Assembly: GCF_021029445.1 (NCBI RefSeq)
Contig: NZ_CP072610.1
Coordinates: forward strand, 1,798,001-1,862,000
Source: Pseudomonas wenzhouensis
Lineage (GTDB): Bacteria > Pseudomonadota > Gammaproteobacteria > Pseudomonadales > Pseudomonadaceae
Direction of reading: 5' to 3'
Length of the DNA: 64,000 bases
Position 1 is the first letter of the stretch; each line of letters starts with the position of its first letter. Both the position numbers and the translations under genes were made by a program. The notes under the pieces are model-generated. The model made no database searches, had not been told where the DNA came from, and was given only the letters and a program-made list of their open reading frames with translations. Positions 31,274-39,661 of this stretch are shown here, in pieces.

Positions 31274-32854
31274 TCAGGAAGCAGCTGGCGCTGGCGAGCA
31301 GTTCCACGGCAACAGCGCTTCGTAGCCTTCGACGCTGTTGACCTGAGGCAGGCGCTCAAGGATGTGGCGCAGGTAGGCGTAGGGCTCCTGGCCATTGGCT
31401 TTGGCGGTTTCGATCAGACTATAGATCTGTGCGCTGGCCGTGGCGCCTTTGGGTGTGTCGCTGAACAGCCAGTTTTTGCGGCCGATGACGAACGGGCGGA
31501 TGGCGTTCTCGGCGCGGTTGTTGTCGATGGGCAGGTTTCCGCCTTCGATGTAGCGCTCCAGGCGGCTCCAGTTGTTGGCCAAGTAGTTCACCGCCTTGCC
31601 CAGGGAGGTCTGTCCGGCGACCTGCGGCTGAGCTTTGTCGAGCCAGGCTTTGAGCTGGTCGAGCACGGGTTGACTGCGCTGTTGGCGGGCGCTCAGGCGT
31701 TCAGCGTCGCTGGCGTCTTTCAGCTCGCGCTCGATACCGTAGAGTTTGTTGATCAGGTTCAGGGCCATGTCGGCTCGCCCAGTTTTGCCTTTAGGCTGCA
31801 CCTTCTGCGCCTCGATAAATTTGCGCCTCGCATGGGCCCAGCAGGCCAGCCGCTCGATGCCCGCTTGCGCGGCCACGGCGTTGTAGCCGGAGTAGTCGTC
31901 GGTCATTAAATAACCGCAATAGCCGGTGAGCAGGCGCAAGGGTACGTCCTGCGCACGACTGGTTGTGTAGTCGAAGAGGACCACCGGCCTGTCTGGCGGG
32001 CCGCCGGTTTGCACCCACATCCAGGATTGGCTGCTCGGGTCGCGCCCCGGTTCTTTGAGCACCTGCACCCGGGTTTCGTCGCAGTGCAACACCGGATAAT
32101 CCAGCAGCGTGTCGCGCATCAAGTTGAGCAAGGGTTGCAGATAGTCACCGCATTGGATCACCCAGCGAGCCAGGGTCTGGCGCGGGATCTCGACGCCGTG
32201 GCGGCTGAGCATCTTCTCGAAGCGGTACAGCGGGATGCCGTCGGCGTATTTGGTGGTCAGCAGCATCGCCAGCACACTGGGGCTGGCCAGGCTCTTCTCG
32301 ATCAGTTGGGCCGGCTTGTCGGCAGTGATCGGCGCCGCTTCGCAGGCCTTGCAGGCGTAGGTCTTGCGGATATGGCGGATGACCCGCACCTGCATCGGGA
32401 TGATCTCCAGCTGCTCGCTGGTCTCCTCGCCGATGACTTGTTTGCAGGCGCCACAGGCGCAAGTCAGCTCGTGCTCGGGCAGGTCGTGGATGACCTCGAC
32501 ACGCGGCAGGTTGGCCGGCAACGGCTTGCGCTTGCCACGGCGCTTGACCGGCGCAACGATTTCTTCGGCTTCGGCTTCGGCTTCGGCTTCGGCTTCGGCT
32601 TCGGCTTCGCTTGGCGCGGCGGACAGCGCTTCGATCAGCTCTTCGGCCTCGTTGAACATGGCCAACTGCGGCGAGTCGGTATCTTCAGGGCTGCGCTCGG
32701 ACTTGGGCGAGAACAACTTGTGGCGCAGCAGGGCGACCTGTTCCTGAAGTTGTTCTATGCGAGCATCTTTCGCAGCCGCCTGTTCACTGGCCAGCAGCAG
32801 TAAATGCTTGAGCAGGATTGGGTCGTCAGGAAGGGGGGCGGGCACGGCGATCAT
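31274..32854 (-). CDS. IS66 transposase TnpC (element B)
   Basis: Reverse-strand TnpC of 526 residues with the same domain order as the element-A copy: coiled-coil N-terminus, Glu-Ala repeat (one unit fewer than A), zinc finger, and DDE domain with [21 protein letters not shown] and [11 protein letters not shown]. Residues 1 to about 245 match copy A apart from one Leu/Val change and the repeat number; after WVIQ the two diverge. The gene appears intact. Confidence 0.94.
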
Positions 32855-32873
32855 GGCCGTGGATTATACCGGC

Positions 32874-33233
32874 TCAGGTCACGAAACGCGGCGTCAGTAT
32901 CTGGTGCGGACGGTTGCGCCACAGGTCGATGCCGTCGAGCAGCCAGTTCAACTCATCGACCGTCAGCTCGATGGCCTCGTCGCCGGCATCGGGCTTGGTC
33001 TTGAAGCGTTCGGCTTCCAAACGCTTGAGCCACAGGCAGAAGCCATTGCGCTCCCAGTAGAGGATCTTGACCTGACTGCGGGTGCGGTTGAGGAACACGA
33101 ACAGCACGGGGTTGAACACTTCCACCTTGATGTCCAGCTCGACCAGAGCGGCCAGGCCGTTGATGGATTTGCGGAAATCGACGGGCTTTGGGTAGAGATA
33201 GACCTTCTGCACCTTGGCGTCGGGACGCATCAT
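32874..33233 (-). CDS. IS66 accessory protein TnpB (element B)
   Basis: A 119-residue IS66 Orf2-like protein identical by eye to the element-A copy, beginning MMRPDAKVQKVYLYPKP. It lies 19 bp upstream of the element-B tnpC on the same (reverse) strand. Its function in the family is as an essential transposition partner of TnpC. Confidence 0.92.
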   Translation of the reverse strand: MMRPDAKVQKVYLYPKPVDFRKSINGLAALVELDIKVEVFNPVLFVFLNRTRSQVKILYWERNGFCLWLKRLEAERFKTKPDAGDEAIELTVDELNWLLDGIDLWRNRPHQILTPRFVT

Positions 33234-33408: not shown

Positions 33409-33725
33409 TGGCTCCGCGATCTGGACTCGACAGCGCAGCTGAACGCGCTTCAGCGCGGCCCCGGAGGGGCAAACGAAGCGAATAGCCTGGGACGTTGTCC
33501 CTGGTGAGAGTCTGCAGGCAATAAAAAAACCAGCGGTTAGGCTGGGCTCTTGAATTTGGCTCCGCGACCTGGACTCGACAGCGCAGCTGAGCGCGCTTCA
33601 GCGCGGCCCCGAAGGGGTGAGCGAAGCGAATAACCTGGGACGTGGTCCCTGGTGAGAGTCCGCAGGTAATAAAAAACCCAGCACTAGGCTGGGTTCTTGA
33701 ATTTGGCTCCGCGACCTGGACTCGA
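33409..33725. repeat. Three direct repeats of the tRNA-Asn 3' end with ~147-bp period
   Basis: The 22 bases at 33704-33725, the 3' end of tRNA-Asn, recur at 33557-33578 (identical) and 33409-33430 (one change). The DNA between them is also repeated: a GC-rich hairpin (CGCGCTTCAGCGCGG) and a terminator-like stretch of As followed by CCAGC..GCTGG. The pattern could result from tandem duplication or from repeated integration at the tRNA 3' end. No gene is seen in it. Confidence 0.85.
33671..33696 (-). terminator. Rho-independent terminator of tRNA-Asn
   Basis: On the reverse strand AACCCAGCCTAGTGCTGGGT is followed by a run of Ts: a strong hairpin with U-tract just downstream of the tRNA 3' end. 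A decayed copy lies at about 33523-33550 in the upstream repeat unit. Confidence 0.82.
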
Positions 33726-33779
33726 ACCAGGGACCCAATGATTAACAGTCATTTGCTCTACCGACTGAGCTATCGCGGA
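33704..33779 (-). tRNA. tRNA-Asn (GTT)
   Basis: A 76-nt cloverleaf on the reverse strand. The acceptor stem begins TCCGCGA, the anticodon arm is GACTGTTAATC with GTT, the T-arm has GGTTCGAGTCC, and CCA is encoded. In P. aeruginosa a tRNA-Asn also lies between the O-antigen locus and the aromatic aminotransferase gene, so it marks the right border here. Confidence 0.97.
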
Positions 33780-33791
33780 ACAACGTTGCGT

Positions 33792-33819
33792 ATGTTACTG
33801 ATTAAAAAGGGGAAGTCAA
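33792..33819 (-). promoter_or_regulatory. Predicted sigma-70 promoter of tRNA-Asn
   Basis: Reverse strand: TTGACT (33819-33814), 16-bp spacer, TAACAT (33797-33792), ending 12 bp before the tRNA 5' end. The -35 box overlaps a GAAGTCA/TGACTTC inverted repeat at 33812-33836 of unknown meaning. Confidence 0.6.
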
Positions 33820-34013
33820 CACTTTGCGGTGACTTCTATCTGGCCACGACGCGTTTGGTTTGGTGGGCGAGGCTTTGGCCGCGACAGCGCTGGTAGAGCC
33901 CATGCGCAATACCGCTGTCCGGGTATTGGTGTAATTACATGGACTCGCCCACGCCGAGGCGTCAATGCGCCACGGTGGCAGTCTAAGAAGCCAACGGCAG
34001 CGAGGGCGAGTCC

Positions 34014-35117
34014 ATGAAAAAGCATACAGCAACTAATCAATCCCAGGCCTTAAACGATCTATCGGCCTGCACGACAGTGGCAGTCGATCTTGCCAAGCGG
34101 GTCTTTCAGGTGGCGGGAGAAGACGTTCTTGGTCAGGTGCGTTACGAGGCGCGGATCAAGTCGCGTGAGGCGTTCTACGAGTTTCTGTGCAAGTTGCCGC
34201 CGAGTGTCGTCGTGCTGGTTGAAACTGGCCCAGGTGCTCAGGCGTGGGCACGGCAGCTACAGGGGCAAGGCAACCTGGCGCGGATTCTTCCGGCTCGTCT
34301 CGTCGAGGGTCACCGCAGCGGTGCGAAGAATGATCGTAACGATGCCCTGTCGATCTTGCGCGCCGGTCGCGATAGCAAGATTTCAGCCGTGCCCATCAAA
34401 AGCGCTGCCTCGCTGGCCATGCAGGCGCTGCATCGCGCTCGGCAGGGTTATGTGCGTCGGCGTACGGCGATGAGTAATCAGATGCGCGGTTTGCTGCTGG
34501 AGCACGGCGTGGCTCTGGCGCAAGGCGATGCGGCTATCAGCCACGTGATACCGAGGGTGCTGGAAGATGCAACGCAGCCACTGCCGGAGATACTGCGGGA
34601 GTTGATCGACGAATTGCTGGGTGAATGGCGGCAATTGGGCGAACGCATCAACGTCTTGAGCGGGCGCTTGGAAGCTGCTGCGAACGCGGACAAGACCGCG
34701 AAACGACTGATGACGGTGCGCGGAGTCGGCCCGATCATCGCCACCGCGCTGCTGGCCAAGCAAACCGAACCTGAACGTTTCGCCAATGCCCGCTTATATG
34801 CGGCTTACTTCGGCATGGTGCCTGATCAGCACAGCAGCGGAGAAAAGATCCGCCTGGGCAAGATGAGCAAGCGAGGCGATGGCTACATGCGCAGCCTGAT
34901 GATCCAGGGCGCGCATCCGGTCCTCCGACAACTACGGCCTGATTCGCAGCAACCGGATGATCGCCGCTTGCTGGGCTGGCTGAGTCGCCTGGGGCGCAAA
35001 GAGGCGGCGGTGAGGTTAGCCAACCGCAACCTACGGATCGCCTGGGTGCTGCTACAGAATGAACAGACTTATCAACGCCAGCCAGTTAATGACAGGCAGG
35101 CGGAAATGAGTCACTGA
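34014..35117 (+). CDS. IS110-family transposase (DEDD, IS1111 group)
   Basis: A 367-residue recombinase. The N-terminal RuvC-like DEDD domain shows VAVDLAKRVFQV, a Glu in VLVETGPGAQAW, and KNDRNDALSIL; the C-terminal serine-containing Tnp20 domain includes LMTVRGVGPIIATALLA and YAAYFGMVPDQHSSGEKIRLG. Enzymes of this family act with an IS-encoded guide RNA. The ATG at 34014 is embedded in a third copy of the 12-bp terminal repeat (34004-34015), and GAGGG just upstream can act as ribosome site. The gene is intact. Confidence 0.93.
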   Translation: MKKHTATNQSQALNDLSACTTVAVDLAKRVFQVAGEDVLGQVRYEARIKSREAFYEFLCKLPPSVVVLVETGPGAQAWARQLQGQGNLARILPARLVEGHRSGAKNDRNDALSILRAGRDSKISAVPIKSAASLAMQALHRARQGYVRRRTAMSNQMRGLLLEHGVALAQGDAAISHVIPRVLEDATQPLPEILRELIDELLGEWRQLGERINVLSGRLEAAANADKTAKRLMTVRGVGPIIATALLAKQTEPERFANARLYAAYFGMVPDQHSSGEKIRLGKMSKRGDGYMRSLMIQGAHPVLRQLRPDSQQPDDRRLLGWLSRLGRKEAAVRLANRNLRIAWVLLQNEQTYQRQPVNDRQAEMSH

Positions 35118-35355
35118 TCCACCGAGTTCTGCCACCGGGGCGCGAAGTCGCTCCAACCTCTGCTAGAAAACATTGACCCCAGGTAAGACCGTTGCGGATT
35201 GATGCCTTGGCTCCTACTGGCCTTCGAGGTCTGAATGTAATAGGCATACCGCAAGCTCACACAATGTTGGCCAGAAGCTGATGACAGCTTCCTCGAATAG
35301 GCCTGATACATAGATGCAGCCGGGTAGCAGTGTTGAAAAGCAGGTTTGACAGTGG
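35118..35355 (+). ncRNA. Putative seek/bridge RNA region of the IS1111-type element
   Basis: IS1111-group elements carry their guide RNA in the 3' non-coding end. This 238-bp gene-free stretch contains GGCTCCTAC at 35209-35217, the exact reverse complement of GTAGGAGCC, the sequence spanning the insertion point, and ATTGATG at 35198-35204, which matches the left flank ATTGGTG at six of seven bases. Further along, TGTAATA (35236-35242) and GATACATAG (near 35296) resemble the element's own junction ends, as expected for a donor loop. RNA boundaries are not determined; the role is inferred from published IS110/IS1111 biology. Confidence 0.65.
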
Positions 35356-35370
35356 GGGCGAGTCCATACA

Positions 35371-35651
35371 TAGGAGCCCCGCCCCGGGGCGAAGCGTTTG
35401 GTTGTGCGGTGTTCTTGTGATCCGCCGCGAGGCGCGGCTCCTACAGGGGGAGGCGGTGCCTGTGGTGCTTGCGTAGGAGCCCCGCCCCGGGGCGAAGCTT
35501 TTGGTTTGCGGTGTTCTTGCGATTCGCCGCGAGGCGCTGCTCCTACAGGGGGAGGTGGTGCCTGTGGTGCTTGCGTAGGAGCCCCGCCCCGGGGCGAAGC
35601 GTTTGGTTGTGCGGTGCTCTACCGAATGATTCGCGGCGGGGCGCCGCTCCA
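35371..35651. repeat. REP/REPIN array, three doublets
   Basis: Three alternating pairs of GTAGGAGCCCCGCCCCGGGG and the opposite arm CGCCGCGAGGCGCGGCTCCT occur with a period near 110 bp. The first arm is the one split by the IS1111-type element. Together with the non-coding IS tail, these fill the gap between the transposase and the aminotransferase gene. Confidence 0.85.
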
Positions 35652-35672
35652 CAGTTATTTGATGCATACAAA

Positions 35673-35700
35673 AACGCCGGCTTATGGGCCGGCGTTCTTG
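35673..35700 (-). terminator. Terminator of the aminotransferase gene
   Basis: Reverse strand: AACGCCGGCCCATAAGCCGG followed by CGTTTTTG, a strong GC hairpin with a T-run, 15-40 bp downstream of the aminotransferase stop codon. Confidence 0.82.
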
Positions 35701-35714
35701 TTTATTGCAGAGGC

Positions 35715-36911
35715 TTACAGCACGGCGTGGATCGCGCGGGTGACGCTGTCCAGGTTGCCCTTGTTCAGCGCAGCGACGCAGATGCGGCCGGTGCCGACGG
35801 CGTAGATGCCGAATTCTTCCTTGAGGCGTTCCACTTGCTCCACGGTGAGGCCGGAGTAGGAGAACATGCCGCGCTGCTGCGCGACGAAGCCGAAGTCACG
35901 CTTGGCGCCCAGTGCGGCCAGTTGCTCGACCATGGCCAGGCGCATGCTGCGAATGCGGTCGCGCATTTCGCCCAGTTCGGCTTCCCACATGGCGCGCAGC
36001 TCGGGGCTGTTGAGCACGCTGGCGACCACGGTGGCGCCGTGGGTCGGCGGGTTGGAGTAGTTGGTACGGATCACGCGCTTGAGCTGCGACAGGACGCGAG
36101 TCGATTCTTCGCGGCTGCTGGTGACCAGCGACAGAGCGCCCACGCGTTCGCCATACAGCGAGAACGACTTGGAGAAGGAGCTGGACACGAAGAACTCCAG
36201 GCCCGACTCGGCGAACAGACGCACGGCTTCGGCGTCCTGGTCGATGCCGTCACCGAAGCCCTGGTAGGCGATGTCGAGGAAGGGCACGTGCTCGCGCTCG
36301 CGCAGCACGTCCAGCACGGCCTTCCAGTCTTCCAATTGCAGGTCGACGCCGGTCGGGTTATGGCAGCAGGCGTGCAGCACGACGATGGAACGGGCCGGCA
36401 GGTTACGCAGGTCTTCGAGCATGCCGCCGCGGTTCACACCGTTGCTGAACGGATCGTAGTAGCGGTAGTTCTGCACTGGGAAACCGGCGGATTCGAACAG
36501 GGCGCGGTGGTTTTCCCAGCTCGGGTCGCTGATGGCCACGGTGGCGTCCGGCAGCAGGCGCTTGAGGAAGTCGGCGCCGATCTTCAGTGCGCCGGTACCG
36601 CCCAGGGCTTGCGTGGTGATCACACGGCCGGCTTCGATCAGGGCTGCGCCCTTGCCGAACAGCAGCTCCTGCACGGCCTTGTCATAGGCCGCGATGCCTT
36701 CGATGGGTAGGTAGCCACGTGGCGCGTGCGCCTCGATACGCGCTTTTTCGGCTTCTGCGACGGCGCGCAGCAGCGGAATCCGTCCCTCCTCGTTGTAGTA
36801 GACGCCCACGCCAAGGTTGACCTTGGTCGCGCGGGTGTCGGCGTTGAATGCTTCGTTGAGGCCCAGGATGGGATCGCGCGGAGCCATTTCGACGGCAGAG
36901 AAGAGACTCAT
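35715..36911 (-). CDS. Aromatic-amino-acid / aspartate aminotransferase (class I)
   Basis: PLP-dependent transaminase of 398 residues, interconverting aromatic amino acids (or aspartate) and their keto acids. The N-terminus MSLFSAVEMAPRDPILGLNE matches TyrB/PhhC-type enzymes. NLGVGVYYNEEG, HACCHNPTGVDL and the PLP-lysine region FVSSSFSKSFSLYGERVGAL are visible. The start at 36911 is preferred; an upstream extension to 37034 has no family resemblance. P. aeruginosa has an equivalent gene between tRNA-Asn and uvrB, so this marks return to conserved backbone. Confidence 0.92.
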   Translation of the reverse strand: MSLFSAVEMAPRDPILGLNEAFNADTRATKVNLGVGVYYNEEGRIPLLRAVAEAEKARIEAHAPRGYLPIEGIAAYDKAVQELLFGKGAALIEAGRVITTQALGGTGALKIGADFLKRLLPDATVAISDPSWENHRALFESAGFPVQNYRYYDPFSNGVNRGGMLEDLRNLPARSIVVLHACCHNPTGVDLQLEDWKAVLDVLREREHVPFLDIAYQGFGDGIDQDAEAVRLFAESGLEFFVSSSFSKSFSLYGERVGALSLVTSSREESTRVLSQLKRVIRTNYSNPPTHGATVVASVLNSPELRAMWEAELGEMRDRIRSMRLAMVEQLAALGAKRDFGFVAQQRGMFSYSGLTVEQVERLKEEFGIYAVGTGRICVAALNKGNLDSVTRAIHAVL

Positions 36912-37051
36912 GATGGATGCGGCAACTCGAGTGAGGGGTGGGTGGCCAGGCGTCCCCGACAAAAGCGCTAGGGGGCGCGTAAACGGGGCGTTAGTATAAC
37001 GACCCTGTATCCAGGGGGCGACAGCGCAAAGCACTGAATTAAGGCCTTTTG

Positions 37052-37074
37052 CCAGGTAATTCGACTCTACCTGG
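37052..37074. promoter_or_regulatory. Inverted repeat in the aminotransferase-uvrB divergent region
   Basis: CCAGGTA and TACCTGG, separated by 9 bp, form a perfect 7-bp palindrome in the divergent promoter region. It could bind a dimeric regulator. No LexA box (CTG-N10-CAG type) was found nearby, so SOS control of uvrB is not supported by what I see. The rest of the 244-bp gap shows no gene. Confidence 0.4.
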
Positions 37075-37155
37075 AGCTATTGCCGAGTCGCCCCGCAATT
37101 CATGGCTTTGACGCCGCCCGGCAGGGCGCGTCACAGTCGTTTGTCGAGGTGCTGC

Positions 37156-39171
<2,016 letters not shown>

Positions 39172-39194
39172 TGTTGCTGCATGGGGCCGAGGTG

Positions 39195-39582
39195 CCGGTG
39201 TAGGAGCCCCGCCCCGAGGCGAAGCTTTTGGCTTTGCGGCGTTCTCTCGATTCGCCGCGGGGCGCGGCTCCTACAGGGTGGGCGGTGCTTGCGGTATGCG
39301 TGTAGGAGCCCTGCCTCGGGGCGAAGCTTTTGGCTTTGTTGCGTTCTCTCGATTCGCCGCGGGGCGCGGCTCCTACGGGGTGGTGCGGTGTCTGCGGCAT
39401 GCGTGTAGGAGCCCCGCCCCGGGGTGAAGCTTTTGGTTTAGCGGCGTTCTCTCGATTCGCCGCGGGGTGCGGCTCCTGCGGGGTGGTACGGTGTCTGCGG
39501 CATTTGTGTAGGAGCCCTGCCTCGGGGCGAAGCTTTTGGCTTTGTGGCGTTCTCTCGATTCGCCGCGAGGCGCGGCTACGTC
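39195..39582. repeat. REP/REPIN array downstream of uvrB
   Basis: Four alternating doublets: arms of type TGTAGGAGCCCCGCCCCGAG begin near 39199, 39300, 39404 and 39508, each followed by TTCGCCGCGGGGCGCGGCTC-type arms near 39251, 39353, 39456 and 39557. The period is close to 104 bp. The 490-bp gap between uvrB and the nitroreductase holds essentially only these repeats. Confidence 0.87.
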
Positions 39583-39661
39583 ACCCGGATGTAGCCGAGC
39601 TTGCAGCGTGCCGCTTGCAGCATTGAGAATGCGCCCTCTTTAAGTCCTCCGGAGATGGCTG

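Follow-up and report, generated by a model that had tools for sequence, protein, structure and literature searches.

The insertion sequence described here is very probably (probability of about 0.92) an IS1111-type, RNA-guided element that chooses its targets through the right guide of a two-loop RNA encoded downstream of its transposase gene. It lies in the window, the whole stretch of 64,000 nucleotides that was analysed. This reading is based on the positions of the copies, on guides and targets that change together, on a covarying fold, and on a preference for the repeat variant that the guide matches. Guidance by seekRNA or bridge RNA is already known, including that of the REP-targeting ISPa11, and the present element belongs to such systems. 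What it adds is a record of guides that have changed several times in nature in step with the repeats of their hosts, in one case a repeat other than a REP, together with an apparent one-sidedness of the target. The element and its boundaries, in window coordinates, are as follows:

33932 to 35370, + strand: IS1111-type insertion sequence, 1439 bp, one of seven copies in the genome
33931 to 33933, + strand: left junction G-TA (flank G and core TA), with the G invariant across copies
33939 to 33950, + strand: left subterminal inverted repeat ATGGACTCGCCC, 12 bp
35356 to 35367, + strand: right subterminal inverted repeat GGGCGAGTCCAT
35356 to 35370, + strand: right repeat with the ACA terminal extension
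35371 to 35395, + strand: REP arm adjoined by the element (core TA, then GGAGCCCCGCCCCGGGGCGAAGC)

The original prediction recognised the IS1111-type element correctly, as its transposase ORF (34014-35117) and its subterminal repeats confirm. It placed the end at 35378, which takes in eight REP bases; the true end is 35370, followed by the core TA. Rejoining the flanks, G|TAGGAGCC, recreates the start of a REP as at 39200, as had also been proposed. The features of IS1111-group membership, namely the transposase domains, the subterminal repeats and a long downstream non-coding region, are all present: the 12-bp repeats fall within the 7-17 bp range given for IS1111 elements in the text cited (PMC11208160), and the 253 nt of non-coding DNA downstream of tnp, compared with 82 nt upstream, is the IS1111 layout. 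Each of the six other genome copies differs from the window copy at one to four positions. All seven have G^TA^GGAGCC as their insertion site and turn their right end toward the REP, and the core TA is found at both junctions of each. Copies with the same guide at unrelated sites had been named as evidence that would count against guidance; among the genome's own copies, all seven lie at GTAGGAGCC.

The window copy lies between a tRNA-Asn gene and an ORF whose product looks, by eye, like an aminotransferase. An IS66-family transposase is found near the tRNA-Asn gene (31274-33233, minus strand), adjoined upstream by a 119-aa ORF that is possibly an IS66 accessory gene. REPs are arrayed in tandem, one unit about every 102 bp, at 35473-35583, beside the IS, and at 39200-39516, after uvrB. 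An Rfam search of 33500-39600 gave matches over the tRNA only and none over the IS element, and a scan of the element for promoter- and terminator-like sites found none. A search of a plasmid collection returned two matches, both partial. The joined flanks of a copy in a related genome (G254) align without a break to a locus of the window's genome (L021) over 149 nt at 97.3%, of which 40 nt are the left side of the join; this uninterrupted match may represent a repeat rather than the same locus, because similar sites elsewhere in the window's genome match too.

The transposase and the region around its start are:

34014 to 35117, + strand: IS110/IS1111 RNA-guided transposase, 367 aa (PF01548, PF02371; NF033542)
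34004 to 34015, + strand: third copy of the subterminal repeat, inverted and overlapping the tnp start codon, in a predicted stem with the left end

Both PF01548 and PF02371 are present, as expected of a DEDD transposase of the IS1111 group, and the protein scores 264.9 bits against NF033542 ('IS110 family RNA-guided transposase'; cut-off 140). The motif G--P----SG, which the cited text gives for the IS1111 group (PMC11187229), is seen by eye as GMVPDQHSSG, and the C-terminal region is similar to 8wt6 (E 3.9e-5), a point of likeness to the IS621 system. The left end and the third repeat copy (33932-34040) are predicted to form a 13-bp stem (-45.9 kcal/mol, z -6.46), which would hide the tnp start codon in transcripts arriving from outside.

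The non-coding region downstream of tnp contains the following:

35168 to 35335, + strand: predicted ncRNA core of seekRNA/bridge type, for which the consensus fold of 16 relatives has two internal loops
35209 to 35217, + strand: right target guide GGCTCCTAC, which pairs with the top strand GTAGGAGCC
35234 to 35241, + strand: left target guide position AATGTAAT, of which only GTA fits the target (G and core)
35261 to 35266, + strand: possible right donor guide ACAATG, which pairs with the left IS end (three bases here)
35306 to 35312, + strand: possible left donor guide ATACATA, the same by eye as the right end plus core (ATACA-TA)

As the original prediction held, GGCTCCTAC is the exact reverse complement of GTAGGAGCC; within the element's last 215 nt, no other 9-mer on either strand matches the target at two or fewer mismatches. 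The right guide is a predicted RNA segment complementary to the top strand of the target, as is required of a seekRNA or bridge RNA. The target word occurs 14 times in the window, including the guide itself, against 0.30 expected. Genome-wide it occurs 141 times and the reversed pattern 146 times, so that the raw count alone is not above the control; about 27 of the first 30 genome sites begin short palindromes, as judged by eye.

Guides and targets were compared at 85 distinct junctions of this element and its relatives, which represent nine guide types. Over 9 nt, 81 of the 85 agree exactly and the remaining four have one mismatch. Because the search expression required a guide with TAC and a target with TA, only the six positions left free test the match. 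At these positions the agreement is 0.992, compared with a mean of 0.638 when guides are swapped among types, and none of 10000 permutations was as high. The tenth base of the guide matches the target at a single junction (1/85), which indicates that the guide ends sharply. That frequency is lower than a quarter; it may reflect chance among few guide types, or the avoidance of longer matches. For the right guide, these comparisons of sequence lend strong support both to RNA guidance and to the targeting of REPs.

The junctions were drawn from a DNA search of 298 genomes of the genus (at least one match at E <= 0.001 in 86 of them, often a short or weak one), a full search of nine carriers, 33 named loci, and the RNA model, which matched 19 of the 298. 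There were 121 junction rows, of which 35 were dropped as duplicates by the 60-nt right flank. One further row was excluded, the inner right end of L119, which was taken as a partial right-end duplication and would show four mismatches if treated as an insertion. Among the unique right junctions (n=94), five were cut by contig ends, one was in fact a left end in reverse and two had no guide within reach. Copies may spread by recombination between element-carrying repeats, and the sites are not strictly independent.

The nine guide types are GTAGGAGCC, -CT, -CG, GTAGCAGCT, GTAAGAGCG, GTAGGAGGG, GTAGGGTGG, GTAGGCTGG and GTAGGTTGG, and the natural guide/target pairs observed include GTAGGAGCC, GTAGCAGCT, GTAGGAGCT and GTAAGAGCG. 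The type GTAGGGTGG is from Stutzerimonas, and GTAGGCTGG and GTAGGTTGG are from Burkholderiaceae MAGs, each of the three with one junction. On a tree of 17 elements bearing eight guide types, the labels require eight changes. Two elements that are 95% identical overall (L070 and L071) have guides one base apart, and their repeats differ at that same base. The REP identity of the relatives' targets was judged from short palindromes beside the junction; a crude stem scan of the flanks was only modestly above shuffled flanks.

The 12 copies in one genome, G263, lie at the end of a non-REP repeat some 700 bp long. This end has 128 matches at two or fewer mismatches, compared with none for the control pattern, and GTAAGGGCG is found in 82 of the 100 uninterrupted ends listed. 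The guide's own variant, GTAAGAGCG, is present at 11 of the 12 occupied ends but at only 11 of these 100 (Fisher p 1.5e-8). A similar preference was observed in two further genomes: the guide's variant is at 12 of 13 occupied sites versus 10 of 50 listed uninterrupted sites in G274 (p 2.6e-6), and at 6 of 6 versus 21 of 100 in G128 (p 1.7e-4, or 0.004 with contig C1 alone as background). These p values are indicative, because the uninterrupted sites listed are partial and non-random (100 of 128 in G263, 50 of 1079 in G274, and 100 of 917 in G128, there from two contigs with the guide's variant at 18 of 51 and 3 of 49) and because recombination between repeats is possible. The repeat in G263, of which three copies were read (L211-L213), has inverted ends and, by eye, a REP pair inside.

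Outside the genus, the RNA-model search of 390 genomes of the order and 398 of the phylum, under strict filters, gave two weak distant matches beyond the window's genome, one of them common to both draws. At locus L171 (G357), on the reverse strand, an ORF resembles, by eye, a portion of an IS110 transposase. The RNA of this distant IS1111-like element, a single copy, matches, again by eye, the left flank (TAGGTCGAT) and the right flank (TAATCCG complement). Among the ORFs of at least 150 aa at L172, no transposase was recognised by eye. Two kinds of derivative were also seen. Palindromic mini-elements of about 90 bp (L214, L215 and L150, in G268 and G086) consist of two left ends of the IS, with neither a transposase nor a guide region; their exact pattern occurs in 2 of the 298 genus genomes, and the third copy was found by eye. 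At L122 (G254), a 73-bp tandem duplication of the right end is joined at TA|GGCC in the element's own non-coding region, and is possibly a trace of off-target self-insertion.

The consensus fold of the 16 relatives comprises an outer stem, a target loop and a donor loop. In the fold, 97.5% of cells pair and nine pairs are changed on both sides; when the stem partners are slid, the pairing falls to 32-44%. Four of five covariation measures were reached by 0 of 500 shuffles, and the fifth, which counts further pair types, by 36 of 500, in a control that favours the fold because the structure was derived from the same alignment. The folding energy of the single sequence is not unusual (z 0.13), and the case for the fold therefore rests on covariation. 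In the target loop, the right guide occupies the 5' side, and nnnGTAAT lies on the 3' side, at the place expected for a left guide.

The donor loop is likely, from its sequence, to pair with the element's own ends. On its 5' side, LE3-LE5 of the left end are paired in all 16 relatives, pairing is missing at LE6 in 2 of the 16 and at LE7 in 6, and left-end changes at LE5/LE6 are matched by the RNA in L046/L118 (one genome) and in L077. For the other end, L084 has ATATATA with a right end of ATATA-TA, and L082 has one base different, as compared by eye. Since this pairing comprises only three bases in the window element, it counts as likely rather than demonstrated.

The left side of the target behaves differently from the right. 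GTA is found at the left-guide position in all 16 aligned relatives, and a G precedes the left end in every full copy whose flank is long enough (75 of 75), as it does at all 91 of the unique left ends that the search expression caught. Before this invariant G, the left flanks of the seven own copies read ggt, gca, agt, gct, ttc, ctt and ccc. Agreement between the left guide and the left flank at positions -5 to -2 (n=74) was 4, 6, 31 and 56, against shuffled means of 5.5, 11.4, 31.9 and 56.2. A T stands before the invariant G in 64 of 75 copies, and also in 17 of 30 sampled GTAGGAGCC sites of the own genome. Targeting in this element's family thus appears to be one-sided, since across the copy positions the left-guide bases are not associated with the left flank.

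In the proposed mechanism, RNA transcribed from the region 3' of the transposase gene would fold into two internal loops and be bound by the transposase. The second loop would pair with the element's own ends in a circular donor, and recombination would proceed by strand exchange at the core TA, so that a TA remains at each junction. The right guide, consisting of the core and six bases, would hold almost all of the target choice, and the left side would require only a G before the core. The REP palindrome itself need not be read, because the 9-mer is found mostly in REPs.

Other explanations were weighed against this mechanism. The downstream RNA could mainly regulate transposase expression, as proposed for Ssr9 of ISPpu9; there, in another REP-inserted IS, the text cited describes a transcribed downstream sRNA (PMC8450116). 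Such a role would leave the joint change of guide and target unexplained and is very unlikely to be the main one, although regulation could be an extra role. That the transposase protein itself recognises the REP palindrome, with the guide-like 9-mer incidental, is slightly less credible still. Recognition of REPs by transposase proteins is an older proposal (PMC1525189), and all seven own targets are, by eye, REP edges; however, targets differ where guides differ, even between the 95% identical elements, G263 uses a non-REP repeat, and the guide-swap test contradicts this explanation.

Even less can be said for the 9-mer as a captured REP fragment, or as a product of gene conversion with flanking REPs, that has no guide function. 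In most hosts the guide and the target are both REP-edge sequence, but the match is inverted, occupies one fixed place in the loop across the nine guide types, stops after 9 nt, and also holds for the non-REP target of G263. The chance of a two-sided guide of the kind first proposed, in which ATTGATG (35198-35204) matches the left flank ATTGGTG, is close to nil. Six of the seven bases do match at the window copy; the other own copies, however, have unrelated left flanks that share only one G, and the last three bases, ATG, sit in a conserved stem, the pairs of which 14-16 of the 16 relatives retain. The actual left-guide position lies across the same loop, at 35234-35241. From the idea of a two-guide RNA that targets REPs, the right guide therefore stands, since guide and target change together, and the left guide does not, since it fails to predict the flank.

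It is reasonably likely, with room for doubt, that these elements form an IS1111 subfamily with a one-sided target. In such a subfamily, the right guide (core and six bases) would read inward from the repeat edge while the left reads G and core, and one to a few guide bases would suffice to switch between repeat families. In Pseudomonas, Stutzerimonas and Burkholderiaceae alike, the guide would then follow the REP family of its host over time, and would once have jumped to the end of the non-REP repeat some 700 bp long. The nine guides, which share a conserved RNA scaffold and in some cases differ from one another at just one base, form with their matched genomic targets a natural panel, in genomes that contain many near-miss sites. 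The panel makes the mismatch tolerance of the IS1111 recombinase, one-sided specificity and the natural route of retargeting directly testable. REP sequences can serve as a docking site that is followed by a mobile element as the REPs evolve.

In the titles and abstract beginnings of the literature searched on IS1111/IS110 with REP, seekRNA or bridge RNA, which includes few subscription papers, no report on this subfamily and none on guides that track host REPs was found. The comparisons below follow the excerpted text of the papers cited. That IS110-type elements target REPs was reported in 2006 (PMC1525189). RNA guidance was shown experimentally in 2024 for IS1111 elements, including ISPa11 on REP (PMC11187229), and so was the two-loop bridge RNA of IS621 (PMC11208160), in a paper where an extended figure legend gives predictions for ISPa11 and ISPpu10. 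ISPpu9 and ISPpu10 of P. putida are likewise IS110-family elements, with seven of seven copies each in REPs and 2-bp junction repeats, but they insert between REP bases 9 and 10 (PMC1525189). ISPa11, which targets the REP of P. aeruginosa, shares with the present element the IS1111 layout, a downstream non-coding RNA and a REP target, and in its seekRNA, too, the complement of the top strand comes first (PMC11187229). Compared by description only, ISPa11 inserts between REP bases 6 and 7 (PMC1525189), whereas the conserved target here starts one base before the core. IS621 resembles the present element in its two internal loops, its target and donor guides and a dinucleotide core inside the guides (PMC11208160); IS621, of the IS110 group, has its RNA upstream and not downstream. 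Its target guides have nine bases on the left and four on the right (PMC11208160), in contrast to the nine-base right guide here and a left side that specifies only G and core. Unlike those of ISEc11 and IS621, the present left guide does not predict the left flank. In the related elements ISEc11 and ISXne4, altered guides go with targets altered to match (PMC11187229); the present family extends this to nine guide types, some one base apart, that are tied to host repeat families.
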